DNA from: an uncultured Pseudomonadales bacterium
GTDB lineage: Bacteria > Pseudomonadota > Gammaproteobacteria > Pseudomonadales > Azotimanducaceae
NCBI GenBank assembly: GCA_951813295.1
Contig: CATOTI010000002.1
Location: 248,001-312,000 of the forward strand
Reading direction: 5' to 3'
DNA length: 64,000 nt
Part shown: in pieces, positions 32,179 to 53,079 of the stretch
Numbering within the stretch: position 1 is the stretch's first letter
How the letters are laid out: each line of letters begins with the position of its first letter
Program-made: the position numbers and the translations under genes
Notes under the pieces: generated by a model
What the model was told of the DNA's origin: nothing
The model's database searches: none
Seen by the model: the letters and a program-made list of their open reading frames with translations, nothing else

Positions 32179-32625
32179 CAGTTTGAGACTGCAATTTCGT
32201 GGCTTTTTCTTCTAGGGGGGACCCTCCGGGTCCCCCCTAGGACCCCCCTGCGTCGCGGCGTTGCCGCGCCGGGCTCTTACGTCTCGATTTCGCTGATTGG
32301 GGTTTGCCGGCTTTAGAACTAATTTGCCCTTAGGTAGATCGTAGCGAACTGATCAGCCTGCAAATCCTTTCCAGGACATCGAGCGGAGGGATGCAGCAGG
32401 ATCCTGGAAATCGGACTAAAACCACCTGCGAATCGCGCCCGATATCGACAGACACCTTCCGGCGAACACGCCTTCCGCCGGGGCCCCGCGCGCAAAGCGC
32501 GCCAGGGGGGAACCACCCCCAGCGATTCCGCGCCGCGACTTAAGCGCGCGGCGAGATTCCCCCATCCGCCAACTCAGACTTCGCGCCGATCCGGCGGGGG
32601 CGTGGGGGCGGAGCCCCCGCAAGAA
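32179..32625. repeat. host repeat, copy A, left arm (GC-rich, palindrome-bearing)
   Basis: This non-coding stretch matches 51034-51482 with roughly 80-85% identity by eye, far below the near identity of the adjoining IS element. It contains a 13-bp stem (CTAGGGGGGACCC / GGGTCCCCCCTAG, loop TCC), a CGCGC-AAA-GCGCG hairpin and a GGGGGC-GGA-GCCCCC hairpin. The IS element interrupts it just after GCAAGAA. It looks like an older dispersed intergenic repeat rather than a gene. Confidence 0.8.
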
Positions 32626-32640
32626 ATGTATGGGCCACCC

Positions 32641-32884
32641 CATCGTTGCAACAGTCATTGGCGACTTTGGCAATCAGTCGGTCTGCACAAATGTATCCGG
32701 CCTGTTAATGGGCTATTTCACGCCCTGGCCTGAGTGGGATCCGCGGCTCGTCGGCTCAATTAGCAAGGCGGGTTCGTAGACCCCTTTTTCTTGCCCGAGC
32801 TTCGACGAAGCTGGATCGACTGATGAAGCCTGCCGCTAACGAGATGCCCGATGGGCAACCAAAATCCGTTCCCTACAACTGCCG
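32641..32884 (-). ncRNA. candidate bridge/seek RNA in the IS 3' end, copy A
   Basis: Read on the transposase strand, this region holds GCCC-ATC-GGGC and AGCTTC-GTC-GAAGCT hairpins and then two guide-like loops. Loop 1 has GCAAGAAAAA (32785-32794), a short GGGT/ACCC hairpin and TTGCTAAT (32759-32766). Loop 2 has CCCATTA (32706-32712), nine bases, then ATACATTT (32689-32696). These match respectively the left flank GCAAGAAA, the complement of right-flank ATTAGCAA, the element's left-end CCCATTA, and the complement of its right-end AAATGTAT. This is the order and strand logic of a bridge RNA (target loop, then donor loop). Transcript ends are unknown. Confidence 0.6.
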
Positions 32885-33910
32885 CTACGCGCGCCCTGGA
32901 TCGTACTCCTCACCACTGCGCAGGACTGCCCATGACAGGCGCGCCAGTTTGTTCGCTAACGCCGTGATGATCACGTTCGGGTGCAAGCCCCGCGCCTCAA
33001 GGTCATTCAGCCAAACACCTAGGCGGTGATCCTCCCGGCACAGGTTGTAGTAGCAGCTGCGCGCGCCGTGTATCAGCAGACTCCGAACGTAGCGGTTGCC
33101 GCGTTTGCTGATCCCCAGCAATCGCGTCCGGCCGCCTGTCGAGTGTTGCCGTGGCACCACCCCGAGCCACGCCGATACATCTCGGGCGCGTGTGAACTGC
33201 TCACCCTTGCCGATCGCCGCCACCAACGCCGTCGATGTCAGCGTGCCAATGCCCGGAATCGTCTGCAGACGCCGGCAGTCATCGCGCTCTCGCGCGATCT
33301 GCTCGATCTCCCGGGTAATCGTGCGAACTTCATCATCTAAGTAACGCCACTGTCGTTGCAGTAATCCCAAAAGCGCGCGTAGACGCCGCGACAATGTGCT
33401 CTCGTCGTCCGCCAGTATCGTCGGTAAGGCCTTCGACAACGCTGTCGGACTCGTGCGCACCGTGATACCTCGCTCCAACAGAAACGCTCGGATCTCGTTG
33501 ATGACGCTTGTGCGCGTCTTCATGAGCTGCTGACGGACGCGGTGCAGGGCTTGCTGATCGTGTTGCTCGATCGTCTTGATCGGCACATATCGCATGGTCG
33601 GGCGCCGCACCGCCTCCGCAATCGCCAAGGCGTCGTTGAAGTCGTTCTTGTTGGTCTTCACGTACGGCTTGACGAACTGCGCTGCCATCAATCGAACGTC
33701 ATGACCGTCGCGTTCAAACTGCCGCGCCAGGTGTTGTGAACCAGCGCACGCTTCCATGCCGATCACACATCGGCTGTGAGTGGCGACAAACTCAGCAAGC
33801 TTCGCTCGGCTGAACTGCTGCCGGAACACCGGCTTACCCGTGTGCGTCGTACCGACCACGTGGAAGGTGCTCTTGCCGACATCGATACCTAGGGTCACGA
33901 TCTGCGTCAT
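32885..33910 (-). CDS. IS110-family DEDD transposase/recombinase, copy A
   Basis: A 341-residue recombinase. The N-terminal RuvC-like DEDD domain has Asp10 in GIDVGK, Glu53 in GMEACAG, and Asp90/Asp93 in NKNDFNDAL. A coiled-coil region (about 115-215) follows, and the C-terminal Tnp_20 domain has IPGIGTLTSTALVAAIG, AWLGVVPRQHSTGG and GISKRGNRYVRSLLIHGARS, containing the candidate nucleophilic Ser. RPTMRYVPIKT is typical of the IS1111 group. The ATG at TQIVTL was chosen since GAGGAGA lies eight bases upstream. These enzymes recombine DNA using a structured guide RNA from the element. Confidence 0.93.
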   Translation of the reverse strand: MTQIVTLGIDVGKSTFHVVGTTHTGKPVFRQQFSRAKLAEFVATHSRCVIGMEACAGSQHLARQFERDGHDVRLMAAQFVKPYVKTNKNDFNDALAIAEAVRRPTMRYVPIKTIEQHDQQALHRVRQQLMKTRTSVINEIRAFLLERGITVRTSPTALSKALPTILADDESTLSRRLRALLGLLQRQWRYLDDEVRTITREIEQIARERDDCRRLQTIPGIGTLTSTALVAAIGKGEQFTRARDVSAWLGVVPRQHSTGGRTRLLGISKRGNRYVRSLLIHGARSCYYNLCREDHRLGVWLNDLEARGLHPNVIITALANKLARLSWAVLRSGEEYDPGRA

Positions 33911-33977
33911 GGGATGGTCTCCTCGAGGGAACGTCGTGTGGGGACACTGATTGTCCACTCGGGGTGGACCATCCCAT

Positions 33978-34030
33978 TAGCAATCAGAAACCCAGCCTAC
34001 TCCTCCGGCCAGTCAACGCTTCCCAGCGTC
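33978..34030. repeat. host repeat, copy A, right arm
   Basis: About 53 bp directly after the IS left end that match 52835-52887 with about three mismatches, after which the two loci diverge completely. It represents the other side of the interrupted host repeat. From its end to the next gene (about 70 bp) nothing is recognised. Confidence 0.7.
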
Positions 34031-34103
34031 GCCAATTCCCAATTCCCAGCCCACCGAATCAGAACTTTCCAGGTCATCGAGCGACATTTCCCAGCGCCAT
34101 CCC

Positions 34104-35243
34104 CTACTCCACCAAATGCGCCTTCAACACCGCCTCATCGAACTCGATCCCGAGTCCCGGCCCCGTCGGCGGCACGATATATCCGTTCTCGAACACCAAC
34201 GGTTCCTTGAAGATCTTCTTGTGCAGCGGTCCCTGATTCGCTTCCTGGATCATGAAATTCGGCGAGCAGGTGTCGATCTGGATCGCCGCGGCGGCGGCGA
34301 CCGGGCCGCAGTACATGTGCGGCGCGATGACGGCGTAGTGCGCTTCGGCCATGGTGGCGATCTTCTTGGCCTCCGTGATGCCGCCGCACTGGCCGACATC
34401 GAGCTGAATGATCTGCGCGGCCTGAGCCTGGAGTACTTTAGCGAATTCGTACTTCGTCACCAGCCGTTCACCCGTGGCGATCGGAATGCTGGTGTGCCGC
34501 GCGACCCGTGCCATCTCGTCGACGTTCTCCGGCATCACCGGCTCTTCGAACCAGAACGGGTGGTAAGGCTCGAGAAAGTCCGCGACCCGAATGGCGCTAT
34601 AGGTCGTGAGTTGGCCGTGGGTGCCGATGCCGACCTCGAGTTCGTTACCAACAGTCGAGCGAATGCTCTCGAAGATCTTCGCGGCGTTCTCGATCTCCTT
34701 CAGCGGGATGTCACGGATCGGGAAGAGCGGCATGAACGGATCGATCTTGCAGGCCGAATTGCCTTCTTCGAGGAGCTTCGCGGCGACATCGCCCGCACGC
34801 TCCGGGTGCTCGACCAAGCCTTCGCTCGGCATGTAGGCGTAGGCGCGGAGTTTCTCGTGATACATCCCGCCGAGTAGGTTGTAGATCGGCTGGTTGGAAG
34901 CCTTGCCCAGGATGTCCCAGAGCGCCATGTCGATCGCGCTGATGACCGGGGTCGCATAGAGACTCGGGTGACGCAGGTCATGGCGCGTGCCGTACATCCG
35001 ATCCCAAATGAGTTCGATGTTGAGGGGGTTCTCGCCCATCACGAACTGACCGACGAATTCCTCGATCAGGCTCACCTGCGATTTGATGTCCTTCAGATGA
35101 TCCGAATACGAGCTGCCGGCGATGCGTTCACCGATACCCGTGATGCCTTCGTCCGTGTGGAGTTCGAGGAATAGGAAATACTTGCCGCCGATATAGGGCG
35201 GTTCGGCCTCGACGACCATCGTTTTGAGTCCGGTCACTTTCAT
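34104..35243 (-). CDS. enolase-superfamily dehydratase (mandelate racemase/galactonate dehydratase-like)
   Basis: A 379-residue member of the MR/MLE superfamily. The N-terminal capping domain is followed by a barrel carrying EVGIGTHGQ (first ligand region with a His acid/base), the second ligand in WFEEPVMPEN, and the third in ATGERLV. QLDVGQCGGITEAKKIA and IAPHMYCGPVA complete the ManD/DgoD-like signature. These enzymes dehydrate sugar acids. It is encoded alone, divergent from the MBL/TauD pair across 144 bp, so the specific sugar acid is unknown. Confidence 0.85.
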   Translation of the reverse strand: MKVTGLKTMVVEAEPPYIGGKYFLFLELHTDEGITGIGERIAGSSYSDHLKDIKSQVSLIEEFVGQFVMGENPLNIELIWDRMYGTRHDLRHPSLYATPVISAIDMALWDILGKASNQPIYNLLGGMYHEKLRAYAYMPSEGLVEHPERAGDVAAKLLEEGNSACKIDPFMPLFPIRDIPLKEIENAAKIFESIRSTVGNELEVGIGTHGQLTTYSAIRVADFLEPYHPFWFEEPVMPENVDEMARVARHTSIPIATGERLVTKYEFAKVLQAQAAQIIQLDVGQCGGITEAKKIATMAEAHYAVIAPHMYCGPVAAAAAIQIDTCSPNFMIQEANQGPLHKKIFKEPLVFENGYIVPPTGPGLGIEFDEAVLKAHLVE

Positions 35244-43162: not shown

Positions 43163-44068
43163 ATGGGTCTTCGTTTTGGTATTGGACTTCGGCGTCTCGA
43201 CGACGTCGCGAGAAGCGCACAAGAGGCCGAAGATCTCGGTTACGAATTCGTCTGCACCGGGGAGCACGTTTTCTTCTACGGCCCGATCAACAACGGCCTG
43301 ATCACGCTCGCCGCGGCCGCGGGTGCGACCAGCAAGATTCAGCTTTTAAGTGCGATAACGCTCGTGCCGCTCTACCCCGCCGCACTCCTGACGAAGCTCG
43401 TGACCTCCCTTTCCGTGGTCTCAAACGGTCGTTTTCATCTCGGCGTCGGCGTGGGCGGTGAGTTTGCGAAGGAGTTCGACGCCTGCGGCGTGCCGGTGAA
43501 GGAGCGGGGCGCCCGCACGAACGAAGCGCTCGAAATCATGGAGCGACTCATGCGGGAGGACGATGTGCACTTCGACGGGCGCTTCACGAGTCTCGATGGG
43601 GTAACGCTCGCGCCGAAGCCCCCGACACCGCCGCCCGTCTGGGTCTCCGGACGAAGCGATGCGGCGATGCGACGCGCCGCCCGATACGGCACCGGATGGC
43701 TACCCTACATGTACACGCCGGAACGCCTCGCCGGCAGCGTCGAGACCATCAACGCGCTCACCGAAGATCGCGAACCTGTCGAACCGGGACTTTTTATCTT
43801 CTTCGCCGTTCATGAAGACGGCGATCGAGCGCGCGAGATGGCAATCGAGCGACTTTCCATCCAATACAACCAGGACTTCACCAACCTCGTGGGCCGATAC
43901 GCGCTCGCCGGCAATCCGGACGAGTGCATCGCGCGGCTGCAGGAGTACATCGCGGCCGGTGCGAGAACGGTGATCCTCAACTCAGCTTGTCCGGGGAGTT
44001 ACATTCCAGAGAACGAGCGTCTCCTGGCGGAGACCGTGCTGCCGGCGTTACGCCGCGCTAATCCCTGA
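43163..44068 (+). CDS. luciferase-like (LLM) flavin/F420-dependent oxidoreductase
   Basis: A 301-residue LLM enzyme with GLRFGIGLRR at the N-terminus, CTGEHVFFYGP, SAITLVPLYPAALLTKLV, and GRFHLGVGVGGEFAKEFDACGV, typical of the F420-associated TIGR03619-like group. The ATG has GGAGGAG-like sequence just upstream. It is third in an esterase, CoA-transferase, LLM operon. Its last 11 bases overlap a convergent PhyH gene. Confidence 0.85.
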   Translation: MGLRFGIGLRRLDDVARSAQEAEDLGYEFVCTGEHVFFYGPINNGLITLAAAAGATSKIQLLSAITLVPLYPAALLTKLVTSLSVVSNGRFHLGVGVGGEFAKEFDACGVPVKERGARTNEALEIMERLMREDDVHFDGRFTSLDGVTLAPKPPTPPPVWVSGRSDAAMRRAARYGTGWLPYMYTPERLAGSVETINALTEDREPVEPGLFIFFAVHEDGDRAREMAIERLSIQYNQDFTNLVGRYALAGNPDECIARLQEYIAAGARTVILNSACPGSYIPENERLLAETVLPALRRANP

Positions 44069-44894
44069 CCGGGATCTGGTTGCCTGACGGGCGCGGATGG
44101 TTCGCCCAATGGCCGGTCGGTTCGACACCGCGGCAGACGACGGAGTGGGCGTTCCAACCGTCGTAAGCACGAACGTCCTTCGATAGATAACGGAGCGCCA
44201 AACCGCAACGGCGCTTCGATGAGGTGTTCGGCTCTGAGCCGTGCAGGATCCAATCGCTGTGCAGCGATGCCTGTCCTGCGCGCAGTTCGAGGGCGACGGG
44301 CTGGTCACCATGTCGATCGGGATTCGGCACCGTCTGACGCAGGACGTTTTGTTCTTCGGGCGCGCTCTCCAGAAACGGTATCTGAGCACGTCGGTGGGAT
44401 TTCGGGATGACCGACATCGCGCCGTTTTCGACGAATGAATCGTCGATCGCAAGCCAGAGCGTCACGACCTTGCTCGGTGTGATCGGCCAGTACGATGCGT
44501 CCTGATGCCAACTCACCCGCTTACCGTCTCCGGGGAGCTTGGCGAAGAAGTGGCTGTGGCGACAAATCACCGTCTCGCCGACGAGATCGGCAACGATGTC
44601 CACAATGCGCGGATGGGAAACGAGATCCCAGACACCGGCGCAGGTCTTGTGCCAGTTGGTCATCTCGTAGTTATCCCAACCGGCGGCCAGCGCTCGCTCG
44701 AGGAGATCGTCGAAGTACTCACGAATCCGGTCGATCTCGTCGCTGTCGAAGATATCGAACGGCGCGAGATAGCCTTCCGCGTTGTACTGATCGATCTCAG
44801 CGGGCGTCAACCGCCCGGGCGAATCGACGCCGAGCGGATAGAACGTGAGATCGCGCTCGAGATCGGGATAGGCGTTCTCGTGCTCGATGCTCAC
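44058..44894 (-). CDS. phytanoyl-CoA dioxygenase (PhyH)-family oxygenase, third copy
   Basis: A 278-residue Fe(II)/2OG oxygenase. The iron ligands are WHQD around residue 128 and His of WILHGSEPNTS, with Arg in RRCGLALRYL for 2-oxoglutarate. It lies nine bases downstream of the selenoperoxiredoxin gene, so the two are probably co-transcribed. An antioxidant paired with an iron oxygenase is a plausible functional link because uncoupled turnover makes peroxide (inference). Confidence 0.88.
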   Translation of the reverse strand: MSIEHENAYPDLERDLTFYPLGVDSPGRLTPAEIDQYNAEGYLAPFDIFDSDEIDRIREYFDDLLERALAAGWDNYEMTNWHKTCAGVWDLVSHPRIVDIVADLVGETVICRHSHFFAKLPGDGKRVSWHQDASYWPITPSKVVTLWLAIDDSFVENGAMSVIPKSHRRAQIPFLESAPEEQNVLRQTVPNPDRHGDQPVALELRAGQASLHSDWILHGSEPNTSSKRRCGLALRYLSKDVRAYDGWNAHSVVCRGVEPTGHWANHPRPSGNQIPVRD

Positions 44895-44903
44895 GCTCCC
44901 TGG

Positions 44904-45362
44904 CTAGCCGTTCAGTTCCGCGAGCTTCTCGAGCGTCGCGCCAACGTCCGGCAACGTGGTCGTATGGGCTTCGCTGTGCCTCACGACCCCTTCACCGTCG
45001 ATGATGAAGAGCGCGCGCCCGGCGATCCCGACGGCATCGTTGAAGATACCGAGTTCTTTCGCGGTACCCCCATGCGGCCAGAAATCGGCCAACAACGGAT
45101 GGCGAATGCCGCCCATCGCCGTCGCCCACGTGCCGAGTGCAAAACGTGAATCGACGGACAGACCCAGCACCTTAGCCCCGGCTTCATCAAACTGCTTCAA
45201 CGCACGGTTGAAAGTAGATGTTTGACTACTTCAGCCGCCGGTAAAGGCGAGGGGGAAGGTGTGTAGTACTACCCAGGAACCCGCAAGCGACTCGAGCGAT
45301 ACCTCGTCTCCGGTATGACTCGTCAGCTTGAAATCGGGTGCTTTGTCTCCTGCTTGAAGCAC
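44904..45362 (-). CDS. selenocysteine-containing peroxiredoxin
   Basis: One continuous frame of 152 residues interrupted only by an in-frame TGA at codon 44 (45231-45233). Upstream of TGA the protein reads AGDKAPDFKL...LHTFPLAFTGG, and downstream SSQTSTFNRALKQFDEAGAK...VLGLSVDSR, a complete AhpC/TSA-type fold. TGA sits at the catalytic position of P-x-x-x-T-x-x-C (P37, T41, U44). The predicted protein has no Cys at all, so it would be a one-Sec peroxidase. AGGAG lies six bases before the GTG start. The conserved Arg later in GIAGRALFIID is present. Reading TGA as a stop would leave two useless fragments. Confidence 0.85.
45196..45230 (-). promoter_or_regulatory. candidate bacterial SECIS element
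   Basis: Immediately after the TGA the mRNA can fold TTCAAC-CGTGC-GTTGAA, extended by a G-U pair, with an apical five-base loop starting 25 nt after the TGA and a G at loop position 2. These fit the bacterial SECIS rules (loop about 16-37 nt downstream, early G). An alternative AAGTAG/CTACTT stem overlaps its base. Confidence 0.65.
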
Positions 45363-45392
45363 AAAGAACTCCTTTTAGAAAAAAAATGAACA

Positions 45393-45465: not shown

Positions 45466-45497
45466 CAAAAAAAAGCCCCTTCCGAGGAAGGGGCTTT
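45466..45497 (-). terminator. intrinsic terminator of the TonB receptor gene
   Basis: On the minus strand AAAGCCCCTTCC-TC-GGAAGGGGCTTT is followed by a run of Ts. It is 20 bp after the receptor stop and isolates that gene from the selenoperoxiredoxin. Confidence 0.92.
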
Positions 45498-45517
45498 GAT
45501 TCAAAGGAGCAGAACGT

Positions 45518-51033: not shown

Positions 51034-51482
51034 CAGTTCGAGGCTGGGATTTTGTGGGCTTTTTCTTCTAGGTGGGACCCTCCGGGTCCCCCCTAGGACC
51101 CCCCTGCGTCGCGGCGTTGCCGCGCCGGGCTCGAAGTCATCGATTTCGCTGATTGGGGTTTGCCGGCTTTAGGACTAATTTGCCCTTAGAAAGACCGTAG
51201 CGAACCGATCAGCCTGCAAATCCGTTCCCGGGCATCGAGCGGAGGGAGAAGCTGCAGGATCCCGCAAACCCGACTAAACCATCCTGCGAATCGCCCCCAA
51301 TATCGATCGGAGCCCTCCGGCGAACATGCCTTCCGCCGGGGCCCCGCGCGCAAAGCGCGCAGGGGGGAATCACCTGCGGTGATTCCGCGCCGCACTGGGC
51401 GCGCGGCGAGATTCCCCCATCCGTCAACTCAGACTCGGCGCCGATCCGGCGGGGGCGTGGGGGCGGAGCCCCCACAAGAAAA
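51034..51482. repeat. host repeat, copy B, left arm
   Basis: The same GC-rich, palindrome-bearing non-coding repeat as at 32179-32625, about 80-85% identical by eye. The first stem carries one mismatch here (GGTGGGACCC). The junction with the IS reads ACAAGAAAA, two bases longer than in copy A. No gene is supported in it. Confidence 0.8.
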
Positions 51483-51497
51483 ATGTATGGGCCACCC

Positions 51498-51741
51498 CAT
51501 CGTTGCAACAGTCATTGGCGACTTTGGCAATCAGTCGGTCTGCACAAATGTATCCGGCCTGTTAATGGGCTATTTCACGCCCTGGCCTGAGTGGGATCCG
51601 CGGCTCGTCGGCTCAATTAGCAAGGCGGGTTCGTAGACCCCTTTTTCTTGCCCGAGCTTCGACGAAGCTGGATCGACTGATGAAGCCTGCCGCTAACGAG
51701 ATGCCCGATGGGCAACCAAAATCCGTTCCCTACAACTGCCG
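51498..51741 (-). ncRNA. candidate bridge/seek RNA in the IS 3' end, copy B
   Basis: Identical to the copy A region. Here the left flank CAAGAAAAA (51475-51483) matches the RNA segment GCAAGAAAAA over nine bases, better than in copy A. The right flank ATTAGCAA matches the complement of the second segment. Confidence 0.6.
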
Positions 51742-52767
51742 CTACGCGCGCCCTGGATCGTACTCCTCACCACTGCGCAGGACTGCCCATGACAGGCGCG
51801 CCAGTTTGTTCGCTAACGCCGTGATGATCACGTTCGGGTGCAAGCCCCGCGCCTCAAGGTCATTCAGCCAAACACCTAGGCGGTGATCCTCCCGGCACAG
51901 GTTGTAGTAGCAGCTGCGCGCGCCGTGTATCAGCAGACTCCGAACGTAGCGGTTGCCGCGTTTGCTGATCCCCAGCAATCGCGTCCGGCCGCCTGTCGAG
52001 TGTTGCCGTGGCACCACCCCGAGCCACGCCGATACATCTCGGGCGCGTGTGAACTGCTCACCCTTGCCGATCGCCGCCACCAACGCCGTCGATGTCAGCG
52101 TGCCAATGCCCGGAATCGTCTGCAGACGCCGGCAGTCATCGCGCTCTCGCGCGATCTGCTCGATCTCCCGGGTAATCGTGCGAACTTCATCATCTAAGTA
52201 ACGCCACTGTCGTTGCAGTAATCCCAAAAGCGCGCGTAGACGCCGCGACAATGTGCTCTCGTCGTCCGCCAGTATCGTCGGTAAGGCCTTCGACAACGCT
52301 GTCGGACTCGTGCGCACCGTGATACCTCGCTCCAACAGAAACGCTCGGATCTCGTTGATGACGCTTGTGCGCGTCTTCATGAGCTGCTGACGGACGCGGT
52401 GCAGGGCTTGCTGATCGTGTTGCTCGATCGTCTTGATCGGCACATATCGCATGGTCGGGCGGCGCACCGCCTCCGCAATCGCCAAGGCGTCGTTGAAGTC
52501 GTTCTTGTTGGTCTTCACGTACGGCTTGACGAACTGCGCTGCCATCAATCGAACGTCATGACCGTCGCGTTCAAACTGCCGCGCCAGGTGTTGTGAACCA
52601 GCGCACGCTTCCATGCCGATCACACATCGGCTGTGAGTGGCGACAAACTCAGCAAGCTTCGCTCGGCTGAACTGCTGCCGGAACACCGGCTTACCCGTGT
52701 GCGTCGTACCGACCACGTGGAAGGTGCTCTTGCCGACATCGATACCTAGGGTCACGATCTGCGTCAT
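51742..52767 (-). CDS. IS110-family DEDD transposase/recombinase, copy B
   Basis: The same 341-residue protein as copy A, with all DEDD residues and the Tnp_20 serine intact, so both copies look functional. GAGGAGA precedes the ATG. Confidence 0.93.
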   Translation of the reverse strand: MTQIVTLGIDVGKSTFHVVGTTHTGKPVFRQQFSRAKLAEFVATHSRCVIGMEACAGSQHLARQFERDGHDVRLMAAQFVKPYVKTNKNDFNDALAIAEAVRRPTMRYVPIKTIEQHDQQALHRVRQQLMKTRTSVINEIRAFLLERGITVRTSPTALSKALPTILADDESTLSRRLRALLGLLQRQWRYLDDEVRTITREIEQIARERDDCRRLQTIPGIGTLTSTALVAAIGKGEQFTRARDVSAWLGVVPRQHSTGGRTRLLGISKRGNRYVRSLLIHGARSCYYNLCREDHRLGVWLNDLEARGLHPNVIITALANKLARLSWAVLRSGEEYDPGRA

Positions 52768-52834
52768 GGGATGGTCTCCTCGAGGGAACGTCGTGTGGGG
52801 ACACTGATTGTCCACTCGGGGTGGACCATCCCAT

Positions 52835-52887
52835 TAGCAATCAGAACCCCAGCCTACTCCTCCGGCTAGTCAACGCTTCCCAGCGTC
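52835..52887. repeat. host repeat, copy B, right arm
   Basis: Matches the right flank of copy A with about three differences and ends at the same point, CAGCGTC. Confidence 0.7.
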
Positions 52888-53079
52888 CCGCCGACGGCCC
52901 ACCACCATCCCGCGATTTCTACGCGATATCGAACAAAGCCGCCCGATCCCACCTAAACTTAGACCCCGGCGCGCAAAGCGCGTCGATAACCTATCTACGC
53001 GACGGCAGCTTTTTCTGAAAAGACTGCCGACGAGCCGCCCAGCGGCTCGAGCGTGCTTCGCATCAGGGGGAAAGCATCC
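52888..53079. other. intergenic spacer between IS copy B and the single-chain carboxylase
   Basis: Contains a GGCGCGC-AAA-GCGCGTC hairpin near 52968-52984, similar to one inside the host repeat, and AGGGGGA before the next ATG. No gene or clear promoter is seen. Confidence 0.5.

Follow-up and report, generated by a model that had tools for sequence, protein, structure and literature searches.

The locus studied here raises the question whether an in-frame TGA, located at the peroxidatic position of a peroxiredoxin gene, ends translation or is read as selenocysteine (Sec). The gene, termed Sec-Prx, lies on the minus strand of the window, i.e. the whole 64,000-nucleotide stretch of DNA that was analysed (Table 1). 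A preliminary description, which left the strand unstated, had proposed a frame running from a GTG preceded by AGGAG through 43 codons, a TGA, and 108 further codons, and re-reading of the sequence bore this out, with the GTG at 45362-45360, the TGA at 45233-45231, and a terminal TAG at 44906-44904. The active site reads P37-LAF-T41-GG-U44, U44 being its last letter, and the 152 residues include no cysteine, both as given in that description.

The protein matches the AhpC/TSA domain with 109.4 bits against a Pfam cut-off of 26. Homologues of Sec-Prx contain 0 to 3 Cys per protein, and the Cys-free state is usual in the near relatives of the window, not a clade-wide rule. The open reading frame list made with translation table 11 gives just a 98-aa fragment, exactly what annotation pipelines had been expected to report, and its TTG start at 45200 (codon 55) is located inside the hairpin that follows the TGA.

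Table 1. Features of the Sec-Prx locus and TGA-bearing genes of the same genome (positions are those of the window unless a contig is named).
Feature	Position	Strand	Remarks
Sec peroxiredoxin CDS	44904..45362	minus	152 residues + TAG; GTG start; Pfam AhpC-TSA 109.4 bits
In-frame TGA, codon 44	45231..45233	minus	Peroxidatic position of PxxxTxxU; predicted to be read as Sec
AGGAG ribosome-binding site	45369..45373	minus	6 nt 5' of GTG; read off the sequence
Predicted bacterial SECIS, upper stem-loop UUCAAC(CGUGC)GUUGAA	45196..45212	minus	Codons 51-55 free of synonymous change
PhyH-type dioxygenase gene	44058..44894	minus	9 nt 3' of the Sec-Prx stop; Pfam PhyH 123.2 bits
12 TGA-bearing AhpC/TSA-fold genes	G000 contig C2, loci L125-L129, L131-L137		TGA in redox motif by eye

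Conservation of the UGA codon and of the downstream hairpin

An alignment-based scan of contigs from 84,980 species yielded 35 Sec-Prx loci, 34 of which (L041-L074) were examined; the remaining one, L075, covers residues 50-88 alone and was left out. The scanned homologues share 47-72% identity in the best segment and carry the labels Gammaproteobacteria/Pseudomonadales, Deltaproteobacteria, Alphaproteobacteria, Betaproteobacteria, and Chloroflexi, the records being metagenome-assembled genomes (MAGs) whose labels may be wrong. A conserved stop or a sequencing error at codon 44 had been named as what would speak against Sec, and the 34 homologues, which come from many assemblies, without exception keep the TGA where codon 44 aligns. 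As the identical TGA recurs in this way, a sequencing error is unlikely. The TGA is also kept in all 15 relatives L002-L016, a set that overlaps with the 34 loci. We then turned to 40 loci of distant peroxiredoxins, one of which (L119) does not reach the motif. All 39 that cover the site have TGC or TGT at the Sec position, none having Trp, and the alignment thus places the Cys of these homologues opposite residue 44 as predicted.

Over 351 pairs, the frameshifted L064 being excluded and synonymous sites being near saturation, the median pN/pS was 0.397 for the part before the TGA and 0.445 for the part after it, suggesting that purifying selection is similar on either side of this codon. P37, T41, and R116 are invariant in the 28-row alignment, where the entry for L064, frameshifted ahead of R116, is not meaningful at the latter position. 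In L064 (4001-4434) the Sec-Prx frame breaks past residue 110 or so and the tblastn match runs on, reflecting either an assembly error or decay.

The hairpin with a CGTGC loop, also pointed out in the preliminary description, was located as stated there, its 5' arm beginning at nt 19 and its loop at nt 25 past the TGA, so that the element as a whole lies 19-35 nt downstream. The 5-nt loop, CGUGC in the RNA, has a G at position 2, followed by U. Its position after 24 nt and the 7-bp stem agree with the rules for bacterial SECIS elements as quoted in the accessible part of PMC13188914, a kind of rule that is often satisfied by chance, some hairpin being present at 115 of the 244 read-through TGAs of the window under a permissive version. 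Among those of the 115 permissive candidates that were read by eye, no other convincing selenoprotein of the window was found.

Not one of the 28 representatives, window included, departs from TTC AAC CGT GCG TTG in codons 51-55, the set omitting seven near-duplicates of more than 90% nucleotide identity (L045, L047, L048, L049, L051, L053, and L062). Across 35 sequences, whose labels are Gamma-, Alpha-, Beta-, and Deltaproteobacteria or Chloroflexi, these codons show no synonymous change. The exact 17-mer of the hairpin was found in 32 of the 34 scanned loci, the exceptions being L047 and L062, in which GGG replaces GCG at codon 54, altering the last base of the loop and changing Ala to Gly. 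The mean codon heterozygosity was 0.024 for codons 51-56 versus 0.548 for the 39 other columns in which one residue accounts for at least 90%, and none of 100,000 degeneracy-matched draws was as low as codons 51-56. The homologue search employed two peptide patterns, one of them spanning codons 51-55, meaning that the peptide was selected for but the codons were not. Moreover, the 17-mer is present in all 15 of the loci L001-L015 (window included), which were found without the peptide pattern, and is absent in L016.

The folding energy of the hairpin is not unusual (z-scores of -1.00, -0.49, 0.07, -1.39, and 1.05), and the minimum-energy fold around the UGA shows pairing other than the proposed hairpin. 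We therefore rejected folding energy as evidence for a SECIS in view of these ordinary z-scores and of the frequency of permissive hairpins at TGAs of the window. The signal stands above chance through conservation, not through folding. Covariation was almost nil among 20 sequences, with the five inner pairs invariant and the sixth differing in L016 alone; at the outermost, seventh pair both sides have changed once, and three sequences lack the pairing. L016 was also rejected as compensatory support, since the sequence branches outside the clade and has a CCAAU loop, which violates the G rule. A search of the genome of origin with Rfam SECIS_1, which we take to be a non-bacterial SECIS family, gave no match, and as the controls were equally blank this result is uninformative. 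The 17-mer has one exact match in that genome and thirty with 1-3 mismatches, the reversed control giving 12.

Sec machinery and further TGA-bearing genes

As a check on the Sec reading the preliminary description had pointed to selA, selB, selC, and selD, and all four were found in the genome of origin: selB with 394 bits (cut-off 242), selA with 541 (268), selD with 272 (125), and a tRNA-Sec with 68 bits (cut-off 47) and the anticodon TCA. The genes selA and selB are adjacent, the tRNA-Sec lies about 10 kb away, and selD is found on the same contig, C1, with the Sec-Prx window on C2. The assembly comprises 5.97 Mb in three contigs and is 98.59% complete with 7.4% contamination. Machinery and Sec-Prx gene being on different contigs and contamination not being nil, we counted this against the Sec reading. 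A further match to the tRNA-Sec model, at C2:2734807, scored 47.4 bits, barely above the cut-off, and is probably another tRNA.

Within the same genus, selA is present in 15 and selB in 14 of the 15 genomes besides that of origin, and in a set of 58 genomes, which are related so that counts are not independent events, selA occurs in 40 and selB in 38. Strong matches to a TGA-bearing peroxiredoxin (E<=1.7e-26) were obtained in 16 of these 58, all 16 having selA and 15 having selB, the exception being G006 (92% complete), which lacks a selB match. Where selA is lacking, in 18 genomes, no strong match was obtained. The gene is patchy within the genus, four of its 16 genomes (G003, G010, G013, and G014) having selA and selB and no strong match. 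Weaker TGA-bearing matches occur as well, some of them in genomes without selA, e.g. G055, where the match has no TGA within the AhpC/TSA domain; those read were L010, L016, and L094.

At E<=1e-10, 11 of 18 AhpC/TSA matches in the genome of origin carry an in-frame TGA. Four genomes that lack selAB gave 0 of 31 by the same count, and three that have selAB gave 5 of 32, where the position of the TGA was read for L010; these seven comparison genomes were hand-picked from 57 relatives. Relaxing the threshold to E<=0.001 gave 21 matches in the genome of origin, 12 of them, including Sec-Prx, with a TGA. All 12 TGAs were read by eye, the motif being TxxU in two and UPxC, USYC, or UGC in the rest. 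Eight of the eleven paralogues (all except L135-L137) were checked for a hairpin, and each of the eight has one, with a stem of 5-8 bp and a G early in the loop, the script having required that G. The stems of these eight differ, and one of them shares the CGUGC loop. Peroxiredoxin-fold genes without TGA are also present in the genome. According to the accessible part of PMC5029168, selenoprotein-rich organisms have six or more selenoprotein genes, and by this criterion the genome of origin would be selenoprotein-rich. It looks so because twelve AhpC/TSA-fold genes carry a TGA in a redox motif.

Relation to known peroxiredoxins and origin of the clade

A Sec peroxiredoxin was reportedly published in 2001, as referenced in PMC13188914. 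In the accessible parts of PMC1088965 and PMC2398784, Sec peroxiredoxins with a TxxU motif are represented by 43 sequences from the Sargasso Sea and 253 from the GOS data, and they rank among the commoner marine selenoproteins. The preliminary description thus set the novelty too high, TxxU Sec peroxiredoxins being known from these two sources and from what could be seen of PMC13188914. As they are already published, the window gene is a new member of this family; the clade to which it belongs is AhpE-like and poor in Cys, and its predicted SECIS is frozen.

The window protein resembles the bacterial Sec peroxiredoxins (PF00578, TxxU; e.g. PrxU of Eubacterium acidaminophilum) in its PxxxTxxU motif, AhpC/TSA fold, and predicted bacterial SECIS. 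It scores 66.8 bits on the PrxU model NCBIfam NF040737, far below the cut-off of 270, and the other NCBIfam models for peroxiredoxins likewise all score below threshold on this protein. Absence of Cys and a hairpin that is nearly identical clade-wide may set it apart from known Sec peroxiredoxins. Two further groups of Sec proteins with a peroxiredoxin fold are described in the accessible part of PMC13188914, the thiol peroxidase Prx-SUH (NF045827) and the Prx-like UxxC proteins (PF00578). The window protein gives 36.9 bits on the Prx-SUH model (cut-off 298), and its motif differs from that of the UxxC proteins, a kind that is, however, present among its paralogues in the same genome.

The best match in the PDB is AhpE of Mycobacterium tuberculosis (1xxu, 4x0x) with 88 bits over residues 1-132, compared to 73.5 bits for yeast TSA1, and the catalytic Thr and R116 align between AhpE and the window protein. 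AhpE is a one-Cys enzyme that is reduced by mycoredoxin/mycothiol, according to what is accessible of PMC4360819. The window protein differs from it in having Sec in place of Cys and in its host, which is outside Actinomycetota. We call it AhpE-like as, in the search against solved structures, AhpE is its closest peroxiredoxin and as a resolving Cys is lacking. Plasmid-encoded 'redoxin domain' proteins of Sphingomonadaceae (WP_066516364.1, WP_047100275.1) are about 41% identical to it and share its active-site layout; they differ in having Cys in place of Sec, in a PLDWSPGC motif, in forming a separate clade, and in being followed by a glutaredoxin-family gene. Such a gene comes after the Cys homologues L117, L118, and L121, located on conjugative-typed plasmids of Sphingobium, Sphingomonas, and Phenylobacterium, and possibly hints at the reductant.

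In the literature searched, which covered few subscription papers, we found no description of a clade of AhpE-like proteins whose SECIS has stayed frozen in different phyla, nor of this selenoprotein-rich host. The main text of deep-Sep contains neither 'peroxiredoxin' nor 'Prx'.

The tree comprises 49 rows, including 21 of the 40 distant loci and omitting L064. The 27 Sec rows form one side of a branch supported at 100/99. Alpha- and Betaproteobacterial rows are intermixed, and the Deltaproteobacterial row is found among Gammaproteobacterial ones, a pattern that we read as suggesting one origin and transfer between groups. The tree program flagged long branches, among them L016, L020, L078, and L116. 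L016 (1501-1965; G017, a related genus) is a TGA-bearing peroxiredoxin with a DWTPNU motif and 39-42% identity. It was placed outside the Sec clade on a long branch, with its position unsure, and was counted apart; it may represent an independent Cys-to-Sec change. Our wider proposal, to which we give even chances, is that an AhpE-like Sec-Prx of single origin, often Cys-free and with a nucleotide-frozen 17-nt SECIS, spread between classes and phyla together with its signal, and that it resides in hosts, such as the probable gammaproteobacterium of this study with its 12 candidates, in which much of the peroxiredoxin-fold repertoire has turned into selenoproteins.

Proposed decoding and function

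We are highly confident that Sec-Prx is an AhpE-like Sec peroxiredoxin of the one-Cys kind in which UGA 44 would be read as Sec via the downstream hairpin and the U44 selenol would reduce peroxides. Sec insertion at UGA 44, as the preliminary description had proposed, is supported by the complete machinery, the conservation of the TGA, and the Cys of the distant homologues. The hairpin (45212-45196) would bind SelB carrying Sec-tRNA-Sec, resulting in UGA 44 being read as Sec. In the Prx family the peroxidatic residue attacks the peroxide, aided by the Pro, Thr, and Arg equivalents of P37, T41, and R116. By this mechanism the U44 selenol, held by these three residues, would attack H2O2 or organic/lipid hydroperoxides, giving a selenenic acid. 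As the protein is Cys-free it has no resolving residue and would need an outside reductant. Regeneration of the selenol might fall to glutathione or another small thiol, to a redoxin, or to both, in analogy to mycothiol/mycoredoxin for M. tuberculosis AhpE (accessible part of PMC4360819), glutathione/glutaredoxin being our guess. Without Sec insertion a mere 43-residue peptide lacking the active site would be made, and the activity would thus be wholly selenium-dependent.

The PhyH gene is probably co-transcribed with Sec-Prx. Of the 34 homologous loci, a tblastn search of the neighbouring genes revealed 5 with a PhyH relative adjoining Sec-Prx; the other 29 have no such neighbour, two of them ending inside or at the gene, and the pairing is thus local, not general. 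At about 45467-45500 of the window a GC-rich hairpin and a T run, noticed by eye, follow a TonB-receptor gene on the minus strand and probably constitute its terminator, which, if real, implies that Sec-Prx has its own promoter. Elsewhere in the window, near-identical open reading frames at about 32319-34236 and 51186-53018 suggest a repeat roughly 2 kb long.

The alternative that fares best accepts Sec insertion and assigns the protein a main role other than bulk peroxide removal; it might, for example, sense peroxide, take part in a redox relay, or protect the PhyH iron dioxygenase encoded next to it. The PhyH gene only 9 nt downstream, its recurrence in five loci, and the TGA-free peroxiredoxin-fold genes of the genome are in line with such a role, but the 29 loci without a PhyH neighbour speak against a fixed partner and the Prx catalytic residues are retained; on balance we regard it as unlikely, if still worth considering. 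That UGA is read as Trp, or that Cys takes the place of Sec at low selenium, so that the protein is no selenoenzyme in practice, is compatible with the sequence, and Cys-for-Sec substitution occurs in other systems. We consider this very improbable, however, in the face of the full Sec machinery, the Cys, never Trp, that aligns with UGA in all 39 distant homologues reaching the site, and the frozen hairpin codons. Least probable of all is a true stop in a pseudogene or a misread sequence, leaving the 98-aa downstream fragment or nothing: table 11 yields that fragment alone, TGAs in single genomes can be errors, and L064 is frameshifted, but the TGA is shared by all 34 examined homologues, purifying selection appears similar on either side of it, and the TTG start of the fragment sits within the hairpin.

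Under the favoured reading of Sec-Prx as a one-Cys-kind Sec peroxiredoxin, standard annotation cuts off a complete active site. The clade represents a natural experiment, the synonymous sites of a predicted SECIS having stayed the same in distant bacteria, and it is useful for testing what SelB reads. A Sec-bearing, Cys-free enzyme provides a clean model for the recycling of a one-Sec peroxidase. Deltaproteobacteria, Clostridia, and Synergistetes made up the majority of selenoprotein-rich organisms in the accessible part of PMC5029168, a paper of 2016, and our data point to a selenoprotein-rich lineage beyond these three groups.
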